The translations under genes and the position numbers were made by a program. DNA of 41,013 nucleotides from Geminicoccaceae bacterium (lineage in GTDB: Bacteria; Pseudomonadota; Alphaproteobacteria; Geminicoccales; Geminicoccaceae): NCBI GenBank assembly GCA_025062095.1, contig JANXAZ010000001.1:1-41013 (forward strand), read 5' to 3'. Positions 676 through 9,218 of this stretch are shown one piece after another. Position 1 is the stretch's first letter; each line of letters starts with the position of its first letter. The notes beneath the pieces are model-generated. The model saw only the letters and a list, made by a program, of their open reading frames with translations, was not told where the DNA came from and did no database searches.

Positions 676-2223
676 TTAGGTCTCGGCCTCGGCCCGAGAA
701 CCGCGCCTTAGGCGCGCGGCCGCGCGCAGGCCGACATGCGCGAGGATCGCGAACGCCAGAAGCCCGAGGGCCCCGACGGTCGCCCGATCGAGCCAGAGAA
801 AGCGCGTCGCCGCCGTGACGTGATGCTCGGCGAGAAGTCCCGCGTTCGCGAACCCGCTGCGCGGCTCGGACGCCGCCGGGATGAAACGCCAGAGGCCGCG
901 CAGGAGGAAACTGTCGAGCCGGTGGCAGTCGGTGCAGCCCTCGGCCGCCCGGCCGGAAAGGAGATCGTGGGCGAGCGGGCGGTCGCGGCCGGCGTGGCAA
1001 TCCGCGCAGCGCACCGCCGCCAGGTGGCGGGCGGCGCGCGGCACCGCGGCGTGCGCGGTCACGAGATCCGGTCGCAGGGGATCGGAAAGCGCGCCGCTCG
1101 CCTCGGGCCGATGGCAGGAAAGACAGGGGCCGTCGTGTTCCGCCTTGAGCCGCGCGGGCAGGACGAGGCTCGCGCTCGCCCGCATGTAGTGGGGGTGGTG
1201 GCAGCCCTCGCAGTCGCGCGCACCGCGGAGTTTCCGGAAGGCTTCGGCGTGGGCCGTGCCCGCGTGTTCGCGCTCGAGCCGCGGGAAGTCGTAAGCGGCG
1301 TCGACGGCGGCGGCCGCGGCGGGCTCGGTGCGCGGATGGCAGTCGCGGCAGGCGGGGAAGCGCCGCTCGGCCGCTACGCGGTGGGGAAAGCGATCGAAGC
1401 CGCGGCTGTGGCACTCGCGACAGGCCATCCGCCCGTGCACGCCCACCTGCAACCGCGCGAGCTCGACCGTGACGTCCTTGCGCGCACCCGTCCGCGCGTC
1501 GCTCACGATGCGCCGCGAGCCCGGCGTGCCCGAATGGCAACCCACGCATTGAAGCGCCGGCGAGGAGCGGTCGAGGACGATCTCGGCCGCGAGTCCGGGG
1601 GCGGGTGCGAGCGCGAGAACGCCGGCGGCGATCGCGAGCGGTGCGATGCGGCGCCAGTCGGCCATCGTCGCCATGTAGAGATGGAGCAGGAAGAAGAGGG
1701 TGGCGAAAAGCGCGAAGAGCGCGTGCGCCGCGGCGAGCAGGGCCCGCTCGAGGGGCGCGGGGAGGATCCCGAAGCTCTCCTCGCGGAACAGGGCGAGGCC
1801 GGTGACCGAAAGAGCCGGCAGGACGAAGACGATGAGCGGGAAATAGAGGAGCCTCTGCACGGGATTGAGCCGGGCTCCCTCGGCTCCGCCCGCGGGCGGT
1901 GATCCGCCCCGCCAGATCCCCGCCGTATACTGCGCGATCTCGAGCGCGACCGCGCGCGCGAGCCCGCGCCGGGGCGGAAGATAGTCCCCGATGCGCCGCG
2001 CGAGCGAAAGGGCGATCGGATAGGACAGGGCGAGCGCCGCGGCGGCGATGCCGAGAAGCTCGTGCAACCGCACCGAGAGCGCGTAGCCCCAGAGCTCGAT
2101 CCCGCCGTAGTGCAGGTGCCAGCCGGTCAGAAAAAGAGGCACGAAGAGAAGGGCGTGCACGAGGTGCCAGAGGCGGATCCACCGCGGTGCGGCGGCCGGC
2201 GTCTGCGCACGCGCCGATTTCAC
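676..2223 (-). CDS. Cytochrome b561-like membrane protein fused to a seven-haem cytochrome c domain
   Basis: A 515-residue protein starting at a GTG that overlaps the mauG stop (GTGA). Residues 14-190 hold about four membrane helices with spaced histidines (H20, H23, H36, H38, H54, H167, H181), like b-type subunits of thiosulfate reductase or Ni-Fe hydrogenase. A further hydrophobic stretch at 193-213 ends in AxA and leads into a hydrophilic domain with seven CXXCH haem c sites, starting at C226, C268, C292, C338, C367, C406 and C430. A last helix lies near 482-500. The layout predicts quinone-side b haems joined to a periplasmic c-haem wire anchored at both ends. It sits at the 3' end of the mau operon, where other methylamine users carry mauL/M/N. 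Inference: it carries electrons between the quinone pool and MauG or methylamine dehydrogenase. It is not a recognised Mau protein. Confidence 0.82.
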   Translation of the reverse strand: MKSARAQTPAAAPRWIRLWHLVHALLFVPLFLTGWHLHYGGIELWGYALSVRLHELLGIAAAALALSYPIALSLARRIGDYLPPRRGLARAVALEIAQYTAGIWRGGSPPAGGAEGARLNPVQRLLYFPLIVFVLPALSVTGLALFREESFGILPAPLERALLAAAHALFALFATLFFLLHLYMATMADWRRIAPLAIAAGVLALAPAPGLAAEIVLDRSSPALQCVGCHSGTPGSRRIVSDARTGARKDVTVELARLQVGVHGRMACRECHSRGFDRFPHRVAAERRFPACRDCHPRTEPAAAAAVDAAYDFPRLEREHAGTAHAEAFRKLRGARDCEGCHHPHYMRASASLVLPARLKAEHDGPCLSCHRPEASGALSDPLRPDLVTAHAAVPRAARHLAAVRCADCHAGRDRPLAHDLLSGRAAEGCTDCHRLDSFLLRGLWRFIPAASEPRSGFANAGLLAEHHVTAATRFLWLDRATVGALGLLAFAILAHVGLRAAARLRRGSRAEAET

Positions 2224-3239
2224 TCGGCGATACCCCCTCGTTCGTCGGGCGGCGGTCGGGAGAGACTCGAAAGAAACGCGAGCAGGTCCTCCTTCTCGGC
2301 TCGCGACAGACCGAGAGGACGAACGAGCGGAGAGCGGCTCGGCCGATCGATGCCGCCGCGATCGTAGTGAGCGATCACCGCCAGCAGATCCGGAAGCGAT
2401 CCGTCGTGCATATAGGGCGGTCGCGCGCCGACCCAGCGCAACGAAGGCGTGCGGAAGGCGAACGGTCGCTCGGGATCGAAGCGCCCGCGGCCGAGATCGC
2501 GGCTCGGAAGACCGATGTCGTGGAAGCCGTCGTCGGTGAGCCGCCAGCCGTGGTGGCAGGCGATGCAGCCCGCACGCCCGGCGAAGAGCCGGAGGCCGCG
2601 CCGCGCCTTCGCCTCCAAGGCGTCCTCGCGGCCTTCGACCCAGGCATCGAAGGCGGTCCGCGGGCTCTCGAGCGTGCGCAGGTAAGCCGCGAGGGCGCGG
2701 GCGAGCGTCGCGCGCGAGAGTCCCTCGCCGGGAAAGCCGGCCGCGAAAGCCTCGCGGTAGAACGAGACGCGGCCGAGCTGCGCGAGCAGGCGCTCTTCCG
2801 TCTGGCCCATCTCGTTCGGGTCCAGGATCGGCATCAGGACCTGCTCCTCGAGGCTCGCGGCGCGGCCGTCGCGCATGAGCGGTCGCACCTCGCCGAGATC
2901 GAAGAGCGAGGGCGTGCGCCGCGCGAGCGTGCGATAGAACACCCCGACCGCGCGGGGCTTGTCGTCCTGGAAGAAACGCGCCGGATCGTGGCAGGTCGAG
3001 CAAGCCATCCGGCCCGTTCCGGACAGGAGCCGCTCGAAGAACAGATGCCGTCCGAGCCGCTCTCGGCTCTCGCGCAGAGGATCGGGGGGGAGGACGGCGG
3101 GCGGGGGACGGCGGAAGAGCTCGCGCAGCGCCGGCAGATCCGCTTCCTCCGCGGCGCGCGCGGGACAGGCCGCGAAGACCAGAAAGGCCGCGGCGAGCGC
3201 GGCGAACGCACGCGCTTTCGCCTCAGGACGTGGCCGCAT
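2220..3239 (-). CDS. mauG: MauG-like dihaem enzyme for TTQ maturation
   Basis: A 339-residue exported protein of the bacterial dihaem peroxidase/MauG family. A signal peptide ends near AxA at residue 30. The first c-haem site is CSTCH at 80-84 and the second CIACH at 225-229; the family PYMHDG motif is at 275-280. MauG completes tryptophan tryptophylquinone on the MauA precursor. The two haem histidines are 145 residues apart, close to classical peroxidases. The residue before DGR, usually Trp in family members, is Arg123. Assignment as mauG rests on family plus position: it overlaps the end of mauJ by 17 bases and the downstream b-haem gene by four. ATG at 3239 was chosen because it gives a clean signal peptide. 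Confidence 0.85.
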   Translation of the reverse strand: MRPRPEAKARAFAALAAAFLVFAACPARAAEEADLPALRELFRRPPPAVLPPDPLRESRERLGRHLFFERLLSGTGRMACSTCHDPARFFQDDKPRAVGVFYRTLARRTPSLFDLGEVRPLMRDGRAASLEEQVLMPILDPNEMGQTEERLLAQLGRVSFYREAFAAGFPGEGLSRATLARALAAYLRTLESPRTAFDAWVEGREDALEAKARRGLRLFAGRAGCIACHHGWRLTDDGFHDIGLPSRDLGRGRFDPERPFAFRTPSLRWVGARPPYMHDGSLPDLLAVIAHYDRGGIDRPSRSPLVRPLGLSRAEKEDLLAFLSSLSRPPPDERGGIAE

Positions 3240-4176
3240 GGCCGGGTTCCGCCGCGCGGCCGGCTCCGATGCGCGCGAGCTCGGCGCAGAGCCGCAGCTC
3301 CTCGGCGAGGATCCGGTGCGCGAGAAGATCGGCGAGGTTCGCGGCACCGGTGAGCTCGCGCTCCGCCTCGAACGCGTACCACGCCTTTCCGTCCCCGATC
3401 GGGGCGCGGGGATCGAGGAGCGCGCGCGCCCGCTCCACCCGTGGCGCGAGCCAGTCGAGAACGCGGGGCAGAGGGATCGGAACCGGCTCGGGAAGAAGCG
3501 CGCGGCAGTCGGCGAGGACGAGATCGAGGCGGCCGATCGCCACCGGAGCGCGAGCGAGCCCGAATGCCGCCGCGCAGCGGTCGGTGCCGGCAAAGGGTTC
3601 CGCGCTCGAAGCGAAGGCGGCGAGGATGCGGTGGGCGGCGAGAAGGCGCAGGACGACGCTGCGCCCCCGCCGGGCCTCTTCGTAAGCGCGCAGCACGAAC
3701 GCGTGCTCGGGACGCAGGGCCGCGGGCGCGAGCTCCGGCAGAGCGACGGTGCTGGGCTGAAAGGGCAGGATCCGCCAGCGCGCGCCGTGTTCGAGATCGG
3801 CGATGCGCGCCCCGCTGAGAGCGAGCCCGCGCCCGCTCGCCACCGTCCAGCGCGCACAAGAGCCTGCGACCGCCCGCCAACCGAGGGCGAGCGCCTCCTC
3901 CGCCCCGCGCGCCTCGATCGAAAAGACGATCTCCGACAGCCGTCCGTTGCGCCCGGGGCACAGGCGCGCGCGCACGATCCGTCCGTCGAGATCGACGAGG
4001 TCGAGCACGCGCTCCTCGGCGAGCGCGAAATCGCTCTCGATCTCGCGCCGCGCGGGCGATTCGAGGAAAAAGGCGACGAGAAACGGCCGCGGCCTCTCGT
4101 CGTTCTCCGCGGCCGCCGTCGTCTCTTCCGCGCTTTCGGCCTTGAGGGGACCGAGAGCGAGATAAGGGACCCACAC
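3223..4176 (-). CDS. mauJ: MauJ-like protein of methylamine operon
   Basis: A 317-residue, apparently soluble protein with no signal peptide and no membrane helix. It starts at GTG, 27 bases after mauA, and overlaps mauG by 17 bases. In Methylobacterium the order is mauFBEDACJGLMN, so a protein of about 300 residues directly before mauG fits MauJ, whose function is unknown. Visible features are an N-terminal beta-rich half and an Arg/Ala-rich helical C-terminal half with a few isolated cysteines; no catalytic motif is recognisable. The symbol depends mainly on position and length. Confidence 0.65.
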   Translation of the reverse strand: MWVPYLALGPLKAESAEETTAAAENDERPRPFLVAFFLESPARREIESDFALAEERVLDLVDLDGRIVRARLCPGRNGRLSEIVFSIEARGAEEALALGWRAVAGSCARWTVASGRGLALSGARIADLEHGARWRILPFQPSTVALPELAPAALRPEHAFVLRAYEEARRGRSVVLRLLAAHRILAAFASSAEPFAGTDRCAAAFGLARAPVAIGRLDLVLADCRALLPEPVPIPLPRVLDWLAPRVERARALLDPRAPIGDGKAWYAFEAERELTGAANLADLLAHRILAEELRLCAELARIGAGRAAEPGHAATS

Positions 4177-4203
4177 GCGCGATCCGCCTCGCCGGTCCGG
4201 CGC

Positions 4204-4746
4204 TCACGCCGCCCTGCCGATCACCGGGGAGATCGTGCAATGGTAGGTCATCGCCTCGTTCTCGGCGCCGAAGCACCAGATGATATCGTTGCTGAACTCC
4301 GGGCGATAGATCGGCAGTTCGCCCACGGTGTTGAAACAGCCGCAGCGCCGGGCGATGTTCTTGCCGCAGCAGTCGCGATAGGCGATGAGATAGCTCTGTC
4401 CGTCTTCGGGATTGAAGCAGCTCGCCACCCAGGAGCTCGGGGAGAGCGCGGTCCCCGGCGGGCAGGAGGTGAGCCCGCCCCCCGAGCACAGGCACAGATA
4501 CCCGTCGAGCGAGCAGTGGCGCCAATAATCGCACGCCGCGGGGTCGCGGGTCTGCGGCTTCCAACCCTCCAACCCGGCGGCCTGCGCGGCCTTGCCGCCC
4601 CGGCGGTCGAGCGGCAGCAGGGGGGCGAGCGTGGCGCCGATGCTCGCCAGGCCGACGCGGCCGATGAAGCTGCGGCGCGAGGAGCGGGAAGCGATCTTGC
4701 GCGTGAGCGCCTCGAAGAGCTGGTCGAACTTGCTGCGTCCCAACAT
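4204..4746 (-). CDS. mauA: Methylamine dehydrogenase small (beta) subunit precursor
   Basis: A 180-residue precursor of the quinone-bearing subunit, which oxidises methylamine to formaldehyde and ammonia in the periplasm. The N-terminus has a twin-arginine motif (SRRSFIG at 23-29), so it is probably exported folded by Tat. The mature part is cysteine-rich, with CDYWRHC at 72-78. The two tryptophans that become TTQ are W106 (SWVASC) and W157 (DIIWCFG). They are 51 residues apart, exactly as Trp57 and Trp108 of Paracoccus. Asp125 in RDCCG matches catalytic Asp76. The C-terminal half follows methylamine rather than aromatic amine dehydrogenase. A GGAGAA ribosome site lies seven bases before the ATG. 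It follows mauD by 28 bases. Confidence 0.97.
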   Translation of the reverse strand: MLGRSKFDQLFEALTRKIASRSSRRSFIGRVGLASIGATLAPLLPLDRRGGKAAQAAGLEGWKPQTRDPAACDYWRHCSLDGYLCLCSGGGLTSCPPGTALSPSSWVASCFNPEDGQSYLIAYRDCCGKNIARRCGCFNTVGELPIYRPEFSNDIIWCFGAENEAMTYHCTISPVIGRAA

Positions 4747-4774
4747 GGTCGCGTTCTCCGCACGGGGTCCGGGG

Positions 4775-5410
4775 TCAGCCCGAAGAGGGGGGCGGGGTCG
4801 GCGCCGCGGCGCCGTTCGGCCGCCGCTGCGCGGCCACGAACTCCTGCAAGGTGGCGAAGCCGGTCCGGTGCGCCTCGACCAGGCTCTCGAGATGCTCGCG
4901 GGTGTTCACGAGGCCCTTGGCGCGGACGCGCCCCGTGTGGTCGAGGAGCACGGCATAGGGCACCTTGCCGATCTGAAAGCGCATGCCGATCGAGGGCGAG
5001 ACGACGTAAGGAATGTCGCCGAGCTCGTGGGTTTCGAGGAAGCGGCGGTGATCCGCTTCGTCGCCGTCGCTCACGATCACCGGAAAGACGCCCTCGCCGG
5101 CGGCGAAGCTGCGCACGGTGGGCAAGAGCTTCTCGCACATCGGGCAGGTGGGCGAGAGGAAGAGGAGGAGCTGGAGTTCGCCCGCCGGCCGTTCGCCTCC
5201 GATCTGGACCGGCCGGCCGCGGAAATCGCGCACGCTGAAGAGCGGTGCCGGCTCGCCGACGTCGGGCCCCTTGTCGGTGACGAGCGCCCCCAGCGGAGCC
5301 GAGCGTTCGTGCAACACGCCCACCTGGCGGGCGAGGCCCAGAAGGACCACGGCGCCGGCGAGGATCGCGAGCCACTGCAAGAGTTCGGAGGCGAGCAGAA
5401 GCGTGTTCAC
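4775..5410 (-). CDS. mauD: MauD thioredoxin-like protein for MADH disulfide formation
   Basis: A 211-residue protein with one N-terminal membrane helix (about residues 3-27) and a periplasmic thioredoxin-like domain. The active site is CPMC (C89, C92) in FLSPTCPMCEKLLP. MauD is needed for the six disulfides of the MauA subunit; without it MauA is degraded. The start was placed at a GTG that overlaps the mauE stop codon (GTGA), which gives a membrane anchor immediately at the N-terminus; longer versions have an arginine-rich, implausible extension. It lies between mauE and mauA, the standard position. Confidence 0.93.
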   Translation of the reverse strand: MNTLLLASELLQWLAILAGAVVLLGLARQVGVLHERSAPLGALVTDKGPDVGEPAPLFSVRDFRGRPVQIGGERPAGELQLLLFLSPTCPMCEKLLPTVRSFAAGEGVFPVIVSDGDEADHRRFLETHELGDIPYVVSPSIGMRFQIGKVPYAVLLDHTGRVRAKGLVNTREHLESLVEAHRTGFATLQEFVAAQRRPNGAAAPTPPPSSG

Positions 5411-5985
5411 GACGGGCTCCCGGAACCGGCTCCGGTCCCTTCGCCGACCAGCTCGTGACGCGGATCGAAGGCGAGCTGGGCGCCGGCGAGGAAGAGAAGG
5501 GCGAAGCTCGCGGCGGCGAGCGCGGCCACCGCGAGATCGAGAAATCCGGCCGGCCGCGGCGCAGCGGTAGCGACGAACAGCGCGGCGGCGCAAAGCGAGC
5601 CGTTGCGCGCGACGTGCCACCAGGACAGCCGTTCGCGCAAGAGCGTGCGGAAGCAGCCGCAATCGATGCCGCGCCGCCCGCGGGCGAGGTTGACCGCCAC
5701 GGCGCAGGCGAAAAGCGCGAGAAGCGCGGCCGCGAGCGCGGCCGCGGCCGAGCGCGTCCAGGGCAGCAAGAGCCCGAGCAGGACGGAGAGTTCGGCCGCG
5801 ACGATGCCCAGCGCCACCGGCCGGGCTAGGACGGCCGGCAACAGACGGTAGTTCCGCACCGTCCCGACGAAGGCCTCGAAGTCGCGCAGCTTGCCCGGAA
5901 GGGCGAGCGCGAAGACGGCGAGGAGCAGGAACCAGGCCGCGGCGTAGAGGGCCGGTTCGCTCGCGAGCGCGCTCGCCTCGGGCAC
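5407..5985 (-). CDS. mauE: MauE membrane protein for MADH maturation
   Basis: A 192-residue integral membrane protein with four or five predicted helices. The pair C109 and C111 (IDCGCF) follows the third helix and could pass reducing or oxidising equivalents to MauD. MauE is required with MauD for stable MauA. It starts at GTG four bases after the mauB stop, with GAGGAGGG eight bases upstream inside the mauB end. Its stop overlaps the mauD start, so the two are probably translationally coupled. The long C-terminal Gly/Ser tail is not typical of the membrane core. Confidence 0.9.
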   Translation of the reverse strand: MPEASALASEPALYAAAWFLLLAVFALALPGKLRDFEAFVGTVRNYRLLPAVLARPVALGIVAAELSVLLGLLLPWTRSAAAALAAALLALFACAVAVNLARGRRGIDCGCFRTLLRERLSWWHVARNGSLCAAALFVATAAPRPAGFLDLAVAALAAASFALLFLAGAQLAFDPRHELVGEGTGAGSGSPS

Positions 5986-5989
5986 GGGC

Positions 5990-7234
5990 TCAGCCCTCCT
6001 CGGGGGTGAGCACGATGTAGGGCTCGCGTCCGAGCTCGGTCACCCGCTGGCGGAACGCACCGGTGCGGGCGTCGTAGATCTCGAGCGTTCCGCCGTGCGC
6101 CTGCAGCCCGTAGAGCAACGGCTCGGGATCCTGGCTCACGGCGATCGAGGTGGCCGGGTGCTCGAGCTTGATCGTCTGCACCCGCGCGCCCGTGGTCGTG
6201 TCGTAAACATAGACCCAGCCGCTGGGATAGGCGTGCGTCCAGGGCGCGCGCTTGTCGACGAGGACGTAGAGGCGGTTGGACGTGCGGTGCCAGGCCGCCG
6301 GCAGCCAGCCGCCCGGGGCCCAGCCCTCCTTCTTCTCGGCGTCGGAGAAGAGGGCGAAGGGCTTGCCGAACCTGGCCTCCGTGCCGACGAGATCGACCGG
6401 GAAGACGTCGCCGTCGTAGGTCAAGAAGAACACTTTGCCGGCTTTGCGGGAGAACGCCGGGGTGTCGAAGAAGTGCTTCTCGGCCGGGCGCAGGATCGGC
6501 GTGTGCCGCATCGTCGCTTCCCCGCGCTCGTCGAAGGAGACCGAAAGAAGCGAGCCCTCGCGGCAGAGCATGAAGAAACTCCTGGGGCCGGAGGGGAAGA
6601 CGAGATAGCAGTCGGGGACCGGTACCGTCTTCAGGTGGCGCTGCTGTTGCAGATCGACGATGCCCACACCGGGCTCGGGCGCGAATTGGAAATACAGAAG
6701 ATAACGGCCGTCGGTGGTGACGTCCGTCATCTGCGGCATGGTCATGACCAGAAAGCGCCCTTCGGGGATGTCGAAATCACAGGTAGTCGAAAAGGTCCTG
6801 GGATCCTGGCAGCGGATGAAATCGTCCTGCGGACCTTGCGAGAACCGCTTGAACCAGGTCTCGGCCAGATAGATCTTCCGCCCGCTGTCCCAGAGTACGA
6901 TGTTGGTGAGAAGACCGGTGTCGATCTGGCCGAGGACGCGCCCCGTGCTGCCGTCGATGCCGTAGATCTTGGTCACCACGTCGAAAGCCGCGGTGTCGTA
7001 AACGTACACGCGACGCAGATCGGGCTCGGGAGCTTGGAGCACCGTGACGTCGTCGACCGGAACCGCGAGCGCCACCCCGCCTTCGACCTGGCGCAGCAGC
7101 TCCGGGATCTGGCCGTGTTGGGCGAGGCCCGAGGAAGAGCCGACGAGGAGAAGCGCGAGCGCGCACGCAGCGCCCGAGAACAGACGCCGGGAAGCGCGCG
7201 CGAGCGAGGGCGAAAGGGGGCGAAGCGGGATCAT
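5990..7234 (-). CDS. mauB: Methylamine dehydrogenase large (alpha) subunit precursor
   Basis: A 414-residue precursor, the expected size for the seven-bladed beta-propeller subunit of methylamine dehydrogenase. Repeated strands of the type RVYVYDT, RYLLYF and WVYVYDTTTGARV recur along the chain. The N-terminus has a long signal with an RR pair (SRRLFSG near residues 15-21) followed by a hydrophobic stretch, so Tat export is likely, as for MauA. The ATG at 7234 was chosen over a further-upstream frame because GGGAGA precedes it by about five bases and the signal then has normal length. It is 58 bases downstream of mauF. Confidence 0.95.
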   Translation of the reverse strand: MIPLRPLSPSLARASRRLFSGAACALALLLVGSSSGLAQHGQIPELLRQVEGGVALAVPVDDVTVLQAPEPDLRRVYVYDTAAFDVVTKIYGIDGSTGRVLGQIDTGLLTNIVLWDSGRKIYLAETWFKRFSQGPQDDFIRCQDPRTFSTTCDFDIPEGRFLVMTMPQMTDVTTDGRYLLYFQFAPEPGVGIVDLQQQRHLKTVPVPDCYLVFPSGPRSFFMLCREGSLLSVSFDERGEATMRHTPILRPAEKHFFDTPAFSRKAGKVFFLTYDGDVFPVDLVGTEARFGKPFALFSDAEKKEGWAPGGWLPAAWHRTSNRLYVLVDKRAPWTHAYPSGWVYVYDTTTGARVQTIKLEHPATSIAVSQDPEPLLYGLQAHGGTLEIYDARTGAFRQRVTELGREPYIVLTPEEG

Positions 7235-7292
7235 GCTCGTCTCCCGAGGCGACCTGGGGAACGCGGAAGGAAACACGGCCGCCCCCGCCCGC

Positions 7293-8144
7293 TCAGGCGA
7301 GGGCGGAAAGAACAAGCGCGGTGCCGGCGAGAAGAAGCGCGCTCGCACCCGCCGCGACGGAAGCCGCCTCGCGCTCGGCGAGCCAGCGCTGCACGGCGCG
7401 ATCGCTCACCGGGAAGGCGTTCACGAGGATCGGCAGGAAGCGGCCGCAATTGAGCGCGAGGACCAGACCCAGGGCGAAGGCGGGCGAGCCCGAGAGCAAG
7501 GCCGCCGCGACCACGACGTAGAGGACGGGTGTGCGCACGTAGGTCAGGAAGTTGAGCCCGAGCGCGAAGCCGTAGAGAAGTCCGATGCGCCACATCGGCC
7601 AGCGCAAGCGCACGTCGTGCGGGACCTGCGCCTTGCGCTGAGGATAAGGGAGAGAGACGAGCCCCAGCTGATCGAGGCCGTAGGCGAGGGCGAGGGCGCC
7701 GAGCACGACCAGCGGCCAAGAGGCGGTCGCGGGCACGGAGAGCAGCCCGGCGCCGAGCGCGAGCACCCCGCCCAAGACGAGGCCGCCCGCGAGATAGCCG
7801 AGCCCGTGGGCGAAGAAGGTCGGAAGCCAGCCGGCGACGGCGCGCGGGCTCCAGACGCCCCAAGGGCGCAAGGTGGCGAGCGAGGAATAACCGCACGGCG
7901 ACCAGGTGGAGAGGAGCCCGCCCGCGAAGGCCAGCCCGAGCAGAAGCGCCGGGGCAAGATCGGATGCGGGCGACGCCGCGCCCAATGCCGCTCCCGCCGC
8001 GACCGAGAGCGCACCCGACAAGAGCTTGGCGCCGATGGAAAGCCCGCCCGCGTGCGGAACGAAATCCGGAACCGAACAGACGGCCTCGTTCGCATCGGCC
8101 CGGGAACGCGAACCCGCGACGGCTTCGCTCGTGCGCGCGAGCAT
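7293..8144 (-). CDS. mauF: MauF membrane protein for MADH biogenesis
   Basis: A 283-residue polytopic membrane protein, first gene of the operon. The motif TWSPCGYSSL around C84 and the late LNCGRFLP around C233 recall the paired cysteines of CcdA/DsbD transporters, to which MauF is distantly similar. MauF is essential for making active methylamine dehydrogenase in Methylobacterium, by an unknown mechanism. About seven helices are visible. A strong ribosome site GGGGGAGG lies six bases before the ATG. Confidence 0.9.
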   Translation of the reverse strand: MLARTSEAVAGSRSRADANEAVCSVPDFVPHAGGLSIGAKLLSGALSVAAGAALGAASPASDLAPALLLGLAFAGGLLSTWSPCGYSSLATLRPWGVWSPRAVAGWLPTFFAHGLGYLAGGLVLGGVLALGAGLLSVPATASWPLVVLGALALAYGLDQLGLVSLPYPQRKAQVPHDVRLRWPMWRIGLLYGFALGLNFLTYVRTPVLYVVVAAALLSGSPAFALGLVLALNCGRFLPILVNAFPVSDRAVQRWLAEREAASVAAGASALLLAGTALVLSALA

Positions 8145-8331: not shown

Positions 8332-9186
8332 TCATTCCTCCAAGAAGAAGTCCTCGTCGATCTTCTTGACGTGGAACGTGCCGGCGACCCGGACGCCCAC
8401 GTCGTAGCGGATCATGAGCCGCGCGAGCTCGTCGCCGTCGATCAGCACGATCCGCTGCGGGAGGTTGGCGGCGGTGCCGCGTGCGTCATCCGTGAATCGC
8501 GAGGTCGTGATGAACACGCCCTGCGTCACTCCACGCTGACTATTGAGCGCACCCGAGAACTCGCGGATCTGCGCGGCCGTCACGCGTTGATCGGGCGCAT
8601 AACGCTTGGCCTGGACATAGACGCGATTGAGTCCGAGCGGATCGAGGTGGATCACGCCATCGATTCCGCCGTCACCCGAACGACCGACGACCCGAGCTGC
8701 ACCTTCCAGTCCGCTGCCGTAACCCATCTTTTCCAACAGCTGGATCACGACCCGCTCGAAGAAAGAAGGTTCCACGTCGCGGACGCGCCGAAGCAGCTCT
8801 TGGGCCAAGGCGGTTTCGAGTTCCTTGTACGCGAGATCCATTCGTTCTTCGGGAGCGAGATCCGGCGCCTGCTCCTTGGCCACGGGTTGGCTCGGCGCCT
8901 GGGTCCCCATCCCGCCCAATCGCTGCTTACCGTTCTGAGTGATTTTATAATAACCCCACTGTGGGCGCTCGATGCTGCCTTGATCTAGAAGTCTTCCCAG
9001 GGCGGCGTTCAGGCGCGAACGGAAAACCGGAGCCCCGGATGGTAACCGTTCGTCTCGTTCATTTTCGGTCAACCTCAGGGCATCTGCCACCCTGTGTTCA
9101 AGCTCGCGCGCTCGTACTTCCTCTTTGCTTTCAGAAAGAACTCGTAAGACAGGAGCTTCAAGTTCAGCGATGCCCGGAATAGGCAT
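8332..9186 (-). CDS. Mrr-type (type IV) restriction endonuclease
   Basis: A 284-residue protein with the two-part Mrr architecture. An N-terminal winged-helix-like region (about 1-100) includes WGYYKITQNGKQRL, and a C-terminal PD-(D/E)XK nuclease domain covers about 135-265. The catalytic pattern is GDGGIDGVI with D172 and D176, then VYVQAKRY with Q192 and K194. Mrr enzymes cut DNA carrying foreign methylation and need no partner methylase, which agrees with none being present. The ATG at 9186 was preferred to one at 9213 because GAGG lies eight bases before it and a good promoter would start transcription between the two. The gene is less G+C-rich than its neighbours in places, which suggests transfer. 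Confidence 0.85.
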   Translation of the reverse strand: MPIPGIAELEAPVLRVLSESKEEVRARELEHRVADALRLTENERDERLPSGAPVFRSRLNAALGRLLDQGSIERPQWGYYKITQNGKQRLGGMGTQAPSQPVAKEQAPDLAPEERMDLAYKELETALAQELLRRVRDVEPSFFERVVIQLLEKMGYGSGLEGAARVVGRSGDGGIDGVIHLDPLGLNRVYVQAKRYAPDQRVTAAQIREFSGALNSQRGVTQGVFITTSRFTDDARGTAANLPQRIVLIDGDELARLMIRYDVGVRVAGTFHVKKIDEDFFLEE

Positions 9187-9218
9187 TGCGTGCCCTCGCT
9201 CTTCTGCCTGCATGTGAC

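Follow-up and report, generated by a model that had tools for sequence, protein, structure and literature searches.

What does a cytochrome that joins a membrane b-type domain to seven c-type haems do at the end of a methylamine dehydrogenase (MADH) operon? The question is raised by a 41,013-nucleotide stretch of DNA from a Geminicoccaceae bacterium (GenBank assembly GCA_025062095.1, contig JANXAZ010000001.1, positions 1 to 41,013; referred to as the window), in which a mau operon ends in a gene for a 515-residue cytochrome b561-heptahaem fusion protein. The textbook mau clusters of Paracoccus denitrificans and Methylobacterium (mauFBEDA-amicyanin-JGMN) have the same mauF-B-E-D-A-J-G order and also carry a membrane electron-transfer module at the tail; however, that module is NapG/NapH (MauM/MauN), whereas the window has the heptahaem/b561 protein and no amicyanin gene. 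We know of no agreed function for MauM and MauN, and to our knowledge it is not settled with which partners MauG, or the formation of tryptophan tryptophylquinone (TTQ), exchanges electrons in the cell.

In this study, the fusion protein is read as a quinone link in the place of MauM/MauN, a non-homologous stand-in serving the periplasmic TTQ system, with a probability of roughly two in three. This reading is carried by the composition of the protein, its conserved histidines, the exclusion of MauM/MauN in the sample, the association with TTQ genes and the exchange of the module together with mau, which are observed. In the proposed mechanism, the di-haem b561 unit would exchange electrons with the membrane quinone pool, the seven periplasmic c-haems, each with a putative second histidine ligand, would carry them on, and the c domain would contact a periplasmic partner. 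Such a wire would link the quinone pool and the periplasmic TTQ-enzyme system, the job presumably done by the NapG/NapH-like MauM/MauN in textbook clusters. The first-pass annotation had missed that the module occupies the MauM/MauN place; that two unrelated modules share one slot suggests a quinone link as the function of this slot. The parts are of known kinds; their combination with MADH, both orders of fusion and the MauM/MauN exclusion do not occur among the literature matches listed, a coverage outside which most older mau papers lie, and the accessible parts of PMC5023228, PMC8262859, PMC12848317 and PMC7876137 hold nothing for or against a heptahaem module.

The operon and its fusion protein

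According to the open reading frames (ORFs) called in the window, the operon lies on the minus strand in the following order, with one gene adjoining it.

7293..8144, minus strand: mauF, mau-cluster membrane protein; 62% of its length aligns with annotated MauF at 50-63% identity (15 plasmid records); no Pfam or NCBIfam match
5990..7234, minus strand: mauB, MADH large subunit; PF06433, 362 bits; TIGR02658, 385 bits (below the cut-off of 454)
5407..5985, minus strand: mauE; PF07291, 90.7 bits; no NCBIfam match
4775..5410, minus strand: mauD; TIGR02661 above cut-off
4204..4746, minus strand: mauA, TTQ-bearing small subunit; PF02975; TIGR02659 above cut-off; TTQ tryptophan columns and 12/12 cysteines
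3223..4176, minus strand: mauJ, function unknown; named by position and by 31-35% identity to the J-position genes of loci L042, L141 and L142; no Pfam or NCBIfam match
2220..3239, minus strand: mauG, di-haem CCP_MauG family; PF03150; TIGR03791 the best NCBIfam model, below cut-off
1597..2223, minus strand: fusion gene, N-terminal cytochrome b561 domain and an extra helix leading to the c domain; PF01292
676..1596, minus strand: fusion gene, heptahaem c domain (c7) and C-terminal membrane anchor; seven CXXCH motifs; anchor helix
160..594, minus strand: CBS-domain-like gene adjoining the operon, probably not part of it; family assigned by eye, no library search

The layout described in the first-pass annotation is confirmed. 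The ORFs and the MauA alignment agree that mauF-B-E-D-A-J-G is intact: both TTQ tryptophan columns and 12/12 cysteines of P. denitrificans MauA are kept, and the window has the MADH-type small subunit with TTQ tryptophans by which a mau cluster is recognized. Amicyanin, MauM and MauN give no match in the 41 kb window (tblastn, E ≤ 1e-4). The fusion gene as a whole runs from 2223 to 676, and its GTG start shares the bases GTGA with the mauG stop; its product matches PF01292 at 62 bits (cut-off 30) and has seven CXXCH motifs, a C-terminal anchor helix and one extra helix after b561. The order from mau to the fusion gene is common to five of the six genomes of the genus, and the layout is therefore more than chance. 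The 162 kb contig begins with the first base of the window, and the downstream side is unseen here; in loci L017 and L018, where the region beyond is visible, the CBS gene is followed by a lolA-like gene (labelled by eye), with no mauM/N.

The histidines of the fusion protein point to its role. In the family alignment, the c domains of 16/16 members have seven CXXCH motifs and seven further invariant histidines, which fits seven bis-histidine haems, and b561 residues His20, His54, His167 and His181, the putative haem ligands, are retained in 12/12 domains checked. Because a second histidine is available for all seven c-haems and the four b561 histidines are kept, the protein is probably an electron wire rather than a catalyst. 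A peroxidase or oxygenase activity of the heptahaem domain was considered and is thought unlikely, as the seven CXXCH motifs and seven invariant histidines (16/16) leave no obvious open haem.

The hydropathy profile of the fusion protein has six peaks; by our reading, the profiles of the window, L042 and L142 fit one topology, with the c domain outside, one anchor and four b561 helices, to which the window order adds one helix relative to L042/L142. In the AlphaFold model the b561 domain is usable, the c domain mostly has pLDDT <50 and the whole-protein mean is 60.4. Foldseek ranks hydrogenase-1 cytochrome b first among the fold matches to the b domain (E 0.4, probability 0.99; no match at E ≤ 0.001), and the best NCBIfam model for this domain is thiosulfate reductase cytochrome b, below cut-off. 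Pfam finds no 4Fe-4S domain in the fusion protein; MauN, by contrast, has Fer4 domains. A multihaem c domain with a di-haem b membrane domain is also found in the CbcL/MtrH/MtoC quinol oxidases and quinone reductases. CbcL has the c domain first and nine haems, whereas the window protein has the b domain first and seven haems; its permuted relatives have c first. In the accessible parts of PMC9129911 and PMC6295460, CbcL is given six membrane helices. The fusion protein matches a protein of genome G403 that is CbcL-like by architecture at 22% over 224 residues of the c part, a comparison in which CbcL itself had no part.

The tail position in mau clusters

In four annotated clusters, those of Paracoccus denitrificans, P. 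yeei, Methylobacterium sp. DM1 and Indioceanicola, the mauG position is followed by genes labelled NapG and NapH; in the last of these one hypothetical gene lies in between. All 15 mauF plasmid records have a MauN homologue on the same strand, 6.9-8.1 kb downstream, and the fusion protein finds no match in any of them. MauM/MauN are absent from the fetched loci of all nine heptahaem mauF clusters, and a genome-wide search for MauN (E ≤ 1e-5) is negative in eight of the nine genomes concerned, with one weak match in G004 (E 6e-6). Among 15 heptahaem genomes, MauN gives one strong match (G020, 57% identity, of the aromatic amine dehydrogenase or aau type), two weak ones (E ~6e-6) and none in the remaining 12. 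In the mauF-type clusters of the sample, the heptahaem module and MauM/MauN exclude each other (Fisher p 8e-7, kinship not removed). Among the gammaproteobacteria, a heptahaem gene lies near every mauF-type cluster (4/4, or 3/3 without genome G191) and occurs in 0/9 aau-type genomes.

Amicyanin varies independently of the tail module. The first-pass annotation had coupled the fusion gene to the loss of amicyanin (mauC), and this coupling is not supported: an amicyanin-like gene is present in at least two of the nine heptahaem mau clusters (L042 and L142), and the cluster of Indioceanicola profundi, which like the window lacks an amicyanin gene between mauA and mauJ, unlike it has NapG/NapH-like genes (MauM/N) and no heptahaem match. 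Replacement of amicyanin by the fusion protein as a rule was rejected, L042 and L142 having both. L140 ends inside mauA, so that its amicyanin and mauG content cannot be judged from the locus. Two related monohaem cytochromes, 56% identical (L140:7008-7448 and L141:2781-3290), stand in gammaproteobacterial mau clusters and may act there in place of amicyanin; the mau cluster of the window genus has neither an amicyanin-like gene nor such a cytochrome. Because carriers and mauG vary among the heptahaem clusters, the tail module is tied neither to amicyanin loss nor to the presence of mauG in the cluster. MADH clusters are not to be judged by amicyanin or mauM/N alone.

A search for a cupredoxin elsewhere in the window genome (3.30 Mb, 99.57% complete) gave no PF00127 match at E ≤ 1, PF13473 not being part of the genome-wide search. 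The same search finds matches in 7/14 control genomes, and with PF00127 the amicyanin-like proteins of L042 and L142 reach 45 and 49 bits, annotated Paracoccus amicyanin 87 bits. A cluster without an amicyanin gene in a genome without a PF00127 protein suits a direct outlet, the main idea of the first-pass annotation, in which electrons from reduced MADH would reach ubiquinone by way of the heptahaem domain and b561, a path that would take over from amicyanin and cytochrome c; this overlaps with the quinone link in the MauM/MauN place and differs from it in direction and partner. The fold match of the b domain agrees with such an outlet, hydrogenase-1 cytochrome b passing electrons from a periplasmic enzyme to quinone, as does the persistence of the module in three aau-type genomes (G017, G019 and G029) that have no MauG-like match at E ≤ 1e-10. 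However, L042 and L142 carry both the module and an amicyanin-like gene, and the L140 and L141 clusters have their monohaem c gene. Furthermore, bis-histidine haems are usually of low potential and TTQ lies near +100 mV, so that such haems would be uphill from TTQ, and aau-type genomes need an outlet too, yet 9/9 gammaproteobacterial ones lack the module. A direct outlet is therefore considered rather unlikely.

Association with TTQ genes and exchange within the genus

The heptahaem/b561 family is small; the search yielded 16 members, 15 of which have a TTQ-subunit gene in the same genome or locus, in ten cases within ~3 kb. Nine stand by mauF clusters, one by an aau-type TTQ cluster, five elsewhere in TTQ genomes (one of them being G005, a mau-less genome of the window genus) and one in a genome in which no TTQ gene was found. 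Among 191 relatives of the window genome, ten have the heptahaem gene and 19 have PF02975 over cut-off, and all ten are among the 19. Within taxonomic family f1, the heptahaem gene occurs in 10/16 TTQ genomes and 0/15 others (p 2e-4), or by genus in 4/6 versus 0/10 (p 0.008). In 369 gammaproteobacterial genomes there are five strong heptahaem matches, four of them with PF02975, against 13/369 overall; without G191, the centre of this sample, which was picked for having both heptahaem and TTQ genes, the figures are 3/4 versus 12/368 (p 1e-4). In 385 alphaproteobacterial genomes heptahaem members occur in three only, all of the same taxonomic family.

These hypergeometric and Fisher values treat genomes as independent. 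Eight weak multihaem matches among the 13 in the gammaproteobacteria (E 2e-15 to 3e-13) were left out, and 0/8 have PF02975. In G503 the PF02975 match (E 1e-12) is fragmentary and lies where a contig ends. L042 (= G191) and L046 were added from a scan of named genomes with two family-derived peptide patterns, from which distant members could escape; it gave 118 stretches and 19 confirmed loci, of which the eight weak ones (E 1e-6 to 3e-4) were not counted. L046 is represented by its locus. Longest ORFs were used for L162, L167, L168, L170 and L140, gene starts from our own caller are approximate, and L053, L096 and L143 have no called genes.

The layouts differ among the members. In the window genus b561 precedes c7 and the two are fused; in other genera of the same taxonomic family and in L042 they are fused with c7 first, and in L046, L139, L140 and L142 they are separate neighbouring genes. 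That the same two partners recur, fused in either order or side by side, is counted in favour of the quinone link. The aau-type clusters share the TTQ subunit and mostly the B-E-D-A order; mauF, G and J find no match in the loci fetched, and most of these clusters bring their own c-type cytochrome; that of Ferruginivarius (L046) has a split heptahaem/b561 pair alongside.

A general quinone-linked multihaem respiratory protein of the CbcL kind, with its own substrate and beside mau by chance or convenience, would account for G005 and G312, for the 5/16 members away from a TTQ cluster and for the distant similarity to a b561 protein with nine haems in G403, which lacks PF02975. We regard this as improbable, since 15/16 members are in TTQ genomes or loci and 10/16 close to the TTQ gene, in two classes and several layouts, and since the module was exchanged together with mau. 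The possibility that the fusion gene is found mostly away from mau clusters received a mixed answer, 9/16 members standing by mauF clusters and 6/16 having no TTQ cluster near. A strict bond to mau was rejected, G005 keeping the fusion without mau and five members lying away from the TTQ cluster.

The exchange is seen within the genus, where 6/6 genomes have the fusion gene and 5/6 the mau cluster. In G005, a single-contig genome, the mau cluster is absent, and the fusion and CBS genes are kept at the same place, 17 bases from an Mrr-like gene; its large-subunit genes are of the aau type only. Identities of cbs are 84-90% among G003, G004 and G005, 84-86% among G000, G001 and G002 and 64-72% between the groups, and lolA groups likewise among the genomes having it. 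Across the block that runs from mauF through the fusion gene, G001 pairs with G004 instead (mauA 99%, mauB 97%, mauG 88%, b561 81%, c7 81%), whereas outside this block the two are 69% (cbs), 64% (lolA), 77% (aauB) and 89% (aauA) identical. Because of this discordance, the simplest reading is that one block, including the fusion gene and without cbs, would have been exchanged in the genus at least once; in the identity table the CBS-like gene tracks the chromosome backbone and not the mau block. The G005 values for mauB, D, E and A, which are aau paralogue matches, were left out of this table, as was ftsK, which gives no clean grouping and of which G001 and G003 hold only part. Values for the peptide-binding protein of G000, read in a wrong frame, were dropped as well. 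Contig C64 of the window genome (L003:9908-13353) carries another TTQ cluster, an aau-type one, with B-E-D-A and a monohaem cytochrome and without mauF, G or J; a second, less similar aau-type large-subunit gene is present in 6/6 genomes of the genus. An Mrr-like gene (by eye; window 8332-9213) lies beside mauF, shares ~50% identity with the corresponding genes of G001, G003 and G005 and is absent from the fetched loci of G002 and G004.

Several points weigh against a quinone link that stands in for MauM/MauN. The exclusion comes from few lineages, five of the nine clusters belonging to one genus and 13/15 plasmids to Paracoccus, and the nine heptahaem clusters were mostly found through the heptahaem gene itself. 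Without the window genus the link in f1 is weaker, at 4/10 versus 0/15 genomes (p 0.017) and 3/5 versus 0/10 genera (p 0.022). The reverse link fails, 9/19 alphaproteobacterial and 9/13 gammaproteobacterial TTQ genomes having no heptahaem match, and TTQ enzymes as such manage without the module; the PF02975 loci fetched from TTQ genomes lacking heptahaem have no mauF, and heptahaem adjoins none of 29 other fetched PF02975 loci. In G312 the module is present and no TTQ gene was found, and with the mau-less fusion of G005 this indicates that the module can serve something else. In L141, c7 adjoins a di-haem gene and no b561 was found before the contig ends, ~545 bases past the next gene. A branch of the MauF tree (100/99; roots for drawing only) has Paracoccus and Methylobacterium on one side and the heptahaem clusters with Indioceanicola on the other. 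Since the deep branches of the MauF and MauB trees give no firm order within this group, and Indioceanicola has no firm place in the MauB tree, the tail module may have changed only once.

Partner and direction of electron transfer

The MauG of the window has TIGR03791 as its best-scoring NCBIfam model, at 251 bits against a cut-off of 444, and is nearer in sequence to the Burkholderia-type di-haem enzyme 6e1c (122 bits) and to bacterial cytochrome c peroxidases (CCPs) in the PDB than to Paracoccus MauG (~60 bits). In the alignment of 5/5 MauG proteins of the genus, with numbering checked on the Paracoccus gene, the equivalent of Tyr294, which we take to be a haem ligand of Paracoccus MauG, is retained and that of Trp93 is Arg. 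A mauG with the Tyr ligand is found in 5/9 heptahaem clusters, every one in this single genus. As a side observation, TTQ genes without a match to the window MauG occur in G011, G015, G017, G019, G025, G026, G029, G039 and G172 (E ≤ 1e-10) and in G191 and G197 (E ≤ 1e-6), several of these genomes being incomplete assemblies.

A module dedicated to MauG, acting as reductase or sink for the di-haem enzyme only, during TTQ synthesis, would suit the GTGA coupling in the window, the identical 4-base overlap found in both G002 and G003, the overlap of c7 with a di-haem gene in L141 (545-1588) and the position of MauM/N, which too come after mauG. However, the fetched loci of L042 and L142 have no mauG; G191 (= L042), the completeness of which is not stated, has no MauG-like match at E ≤ 1e-6, and for L142 and L140 a different contig of the genome encodes a MauG-family protein, 34-36% identical. 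The di-haem protein of L141 has a CCP-type Met at the Tyr294 position, and G005 keeps the module with a 33% protein bearing a Met ligand as its sole MauG-like match. Exclusive service to MauG is therefore distinctly unlikely, and the electron sink for MauG proposed at first pass is not supported as a general rule.

What stands of the original proposal is a path of haems that links the MADH system with the membrane, for which the TTQ association, the conserved b561 and c histidines and the lack of PF00127 argue; contact with quinone, haem ligation, the partner protein and the direction are inferred. Within the quinone-link reading, we lean slightly, at less than even odds, toward quinol feeding the O2-dependent maturation side, because the mauF-type clusters of the sample have a tail module and aau-type clusters, which also shed electrons, are mostly without one. 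That MADH discharges into quinone is a tentative possibility, well short of even; for the window genus this opposite direction is nearly as likely, because the operon has no other carrier gene. The direct outlet and the MauG-dedicated module are partly sub-cases of the quinone link. In the accessible part of PMC6295460, proteins of the CbcL type, which are built along similar lines, are said to exchange electrons with quinones in both directions. The heptahaem domain changes colour on reduction, by which direction and partner become testable. A wider claim, which we hold to be doubtful, is that mau-type TTQ enzymes need an obligatory quinone link, that the slot has been filled at least twice by unrelated modules and that, where mauG is missing, the wire may be the only dedicated partner of TTQ formation.

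Some further genes accompany these clusters. Multicopper-oxidase-like genes (by eye) lie by six aau-type clusters (L046:11646-13001, L086:7817-9226, L088:10466-11872, L090:5628-6953, L091:7654-8892 and L093:1547-2797), the other five being 43-51% identical to that of L046. L073 (G187:C1:1656488-1656691) is a PF02975 fragment below cut-off (E 2.8e-4) with two TGA and two TAA codons inside. Sigma-54-activator-like genes (by eye) stand beside gammaproteobacterial mau clusters at L042:1943-3082, L140:8407-9537 and L142:17773-18777.

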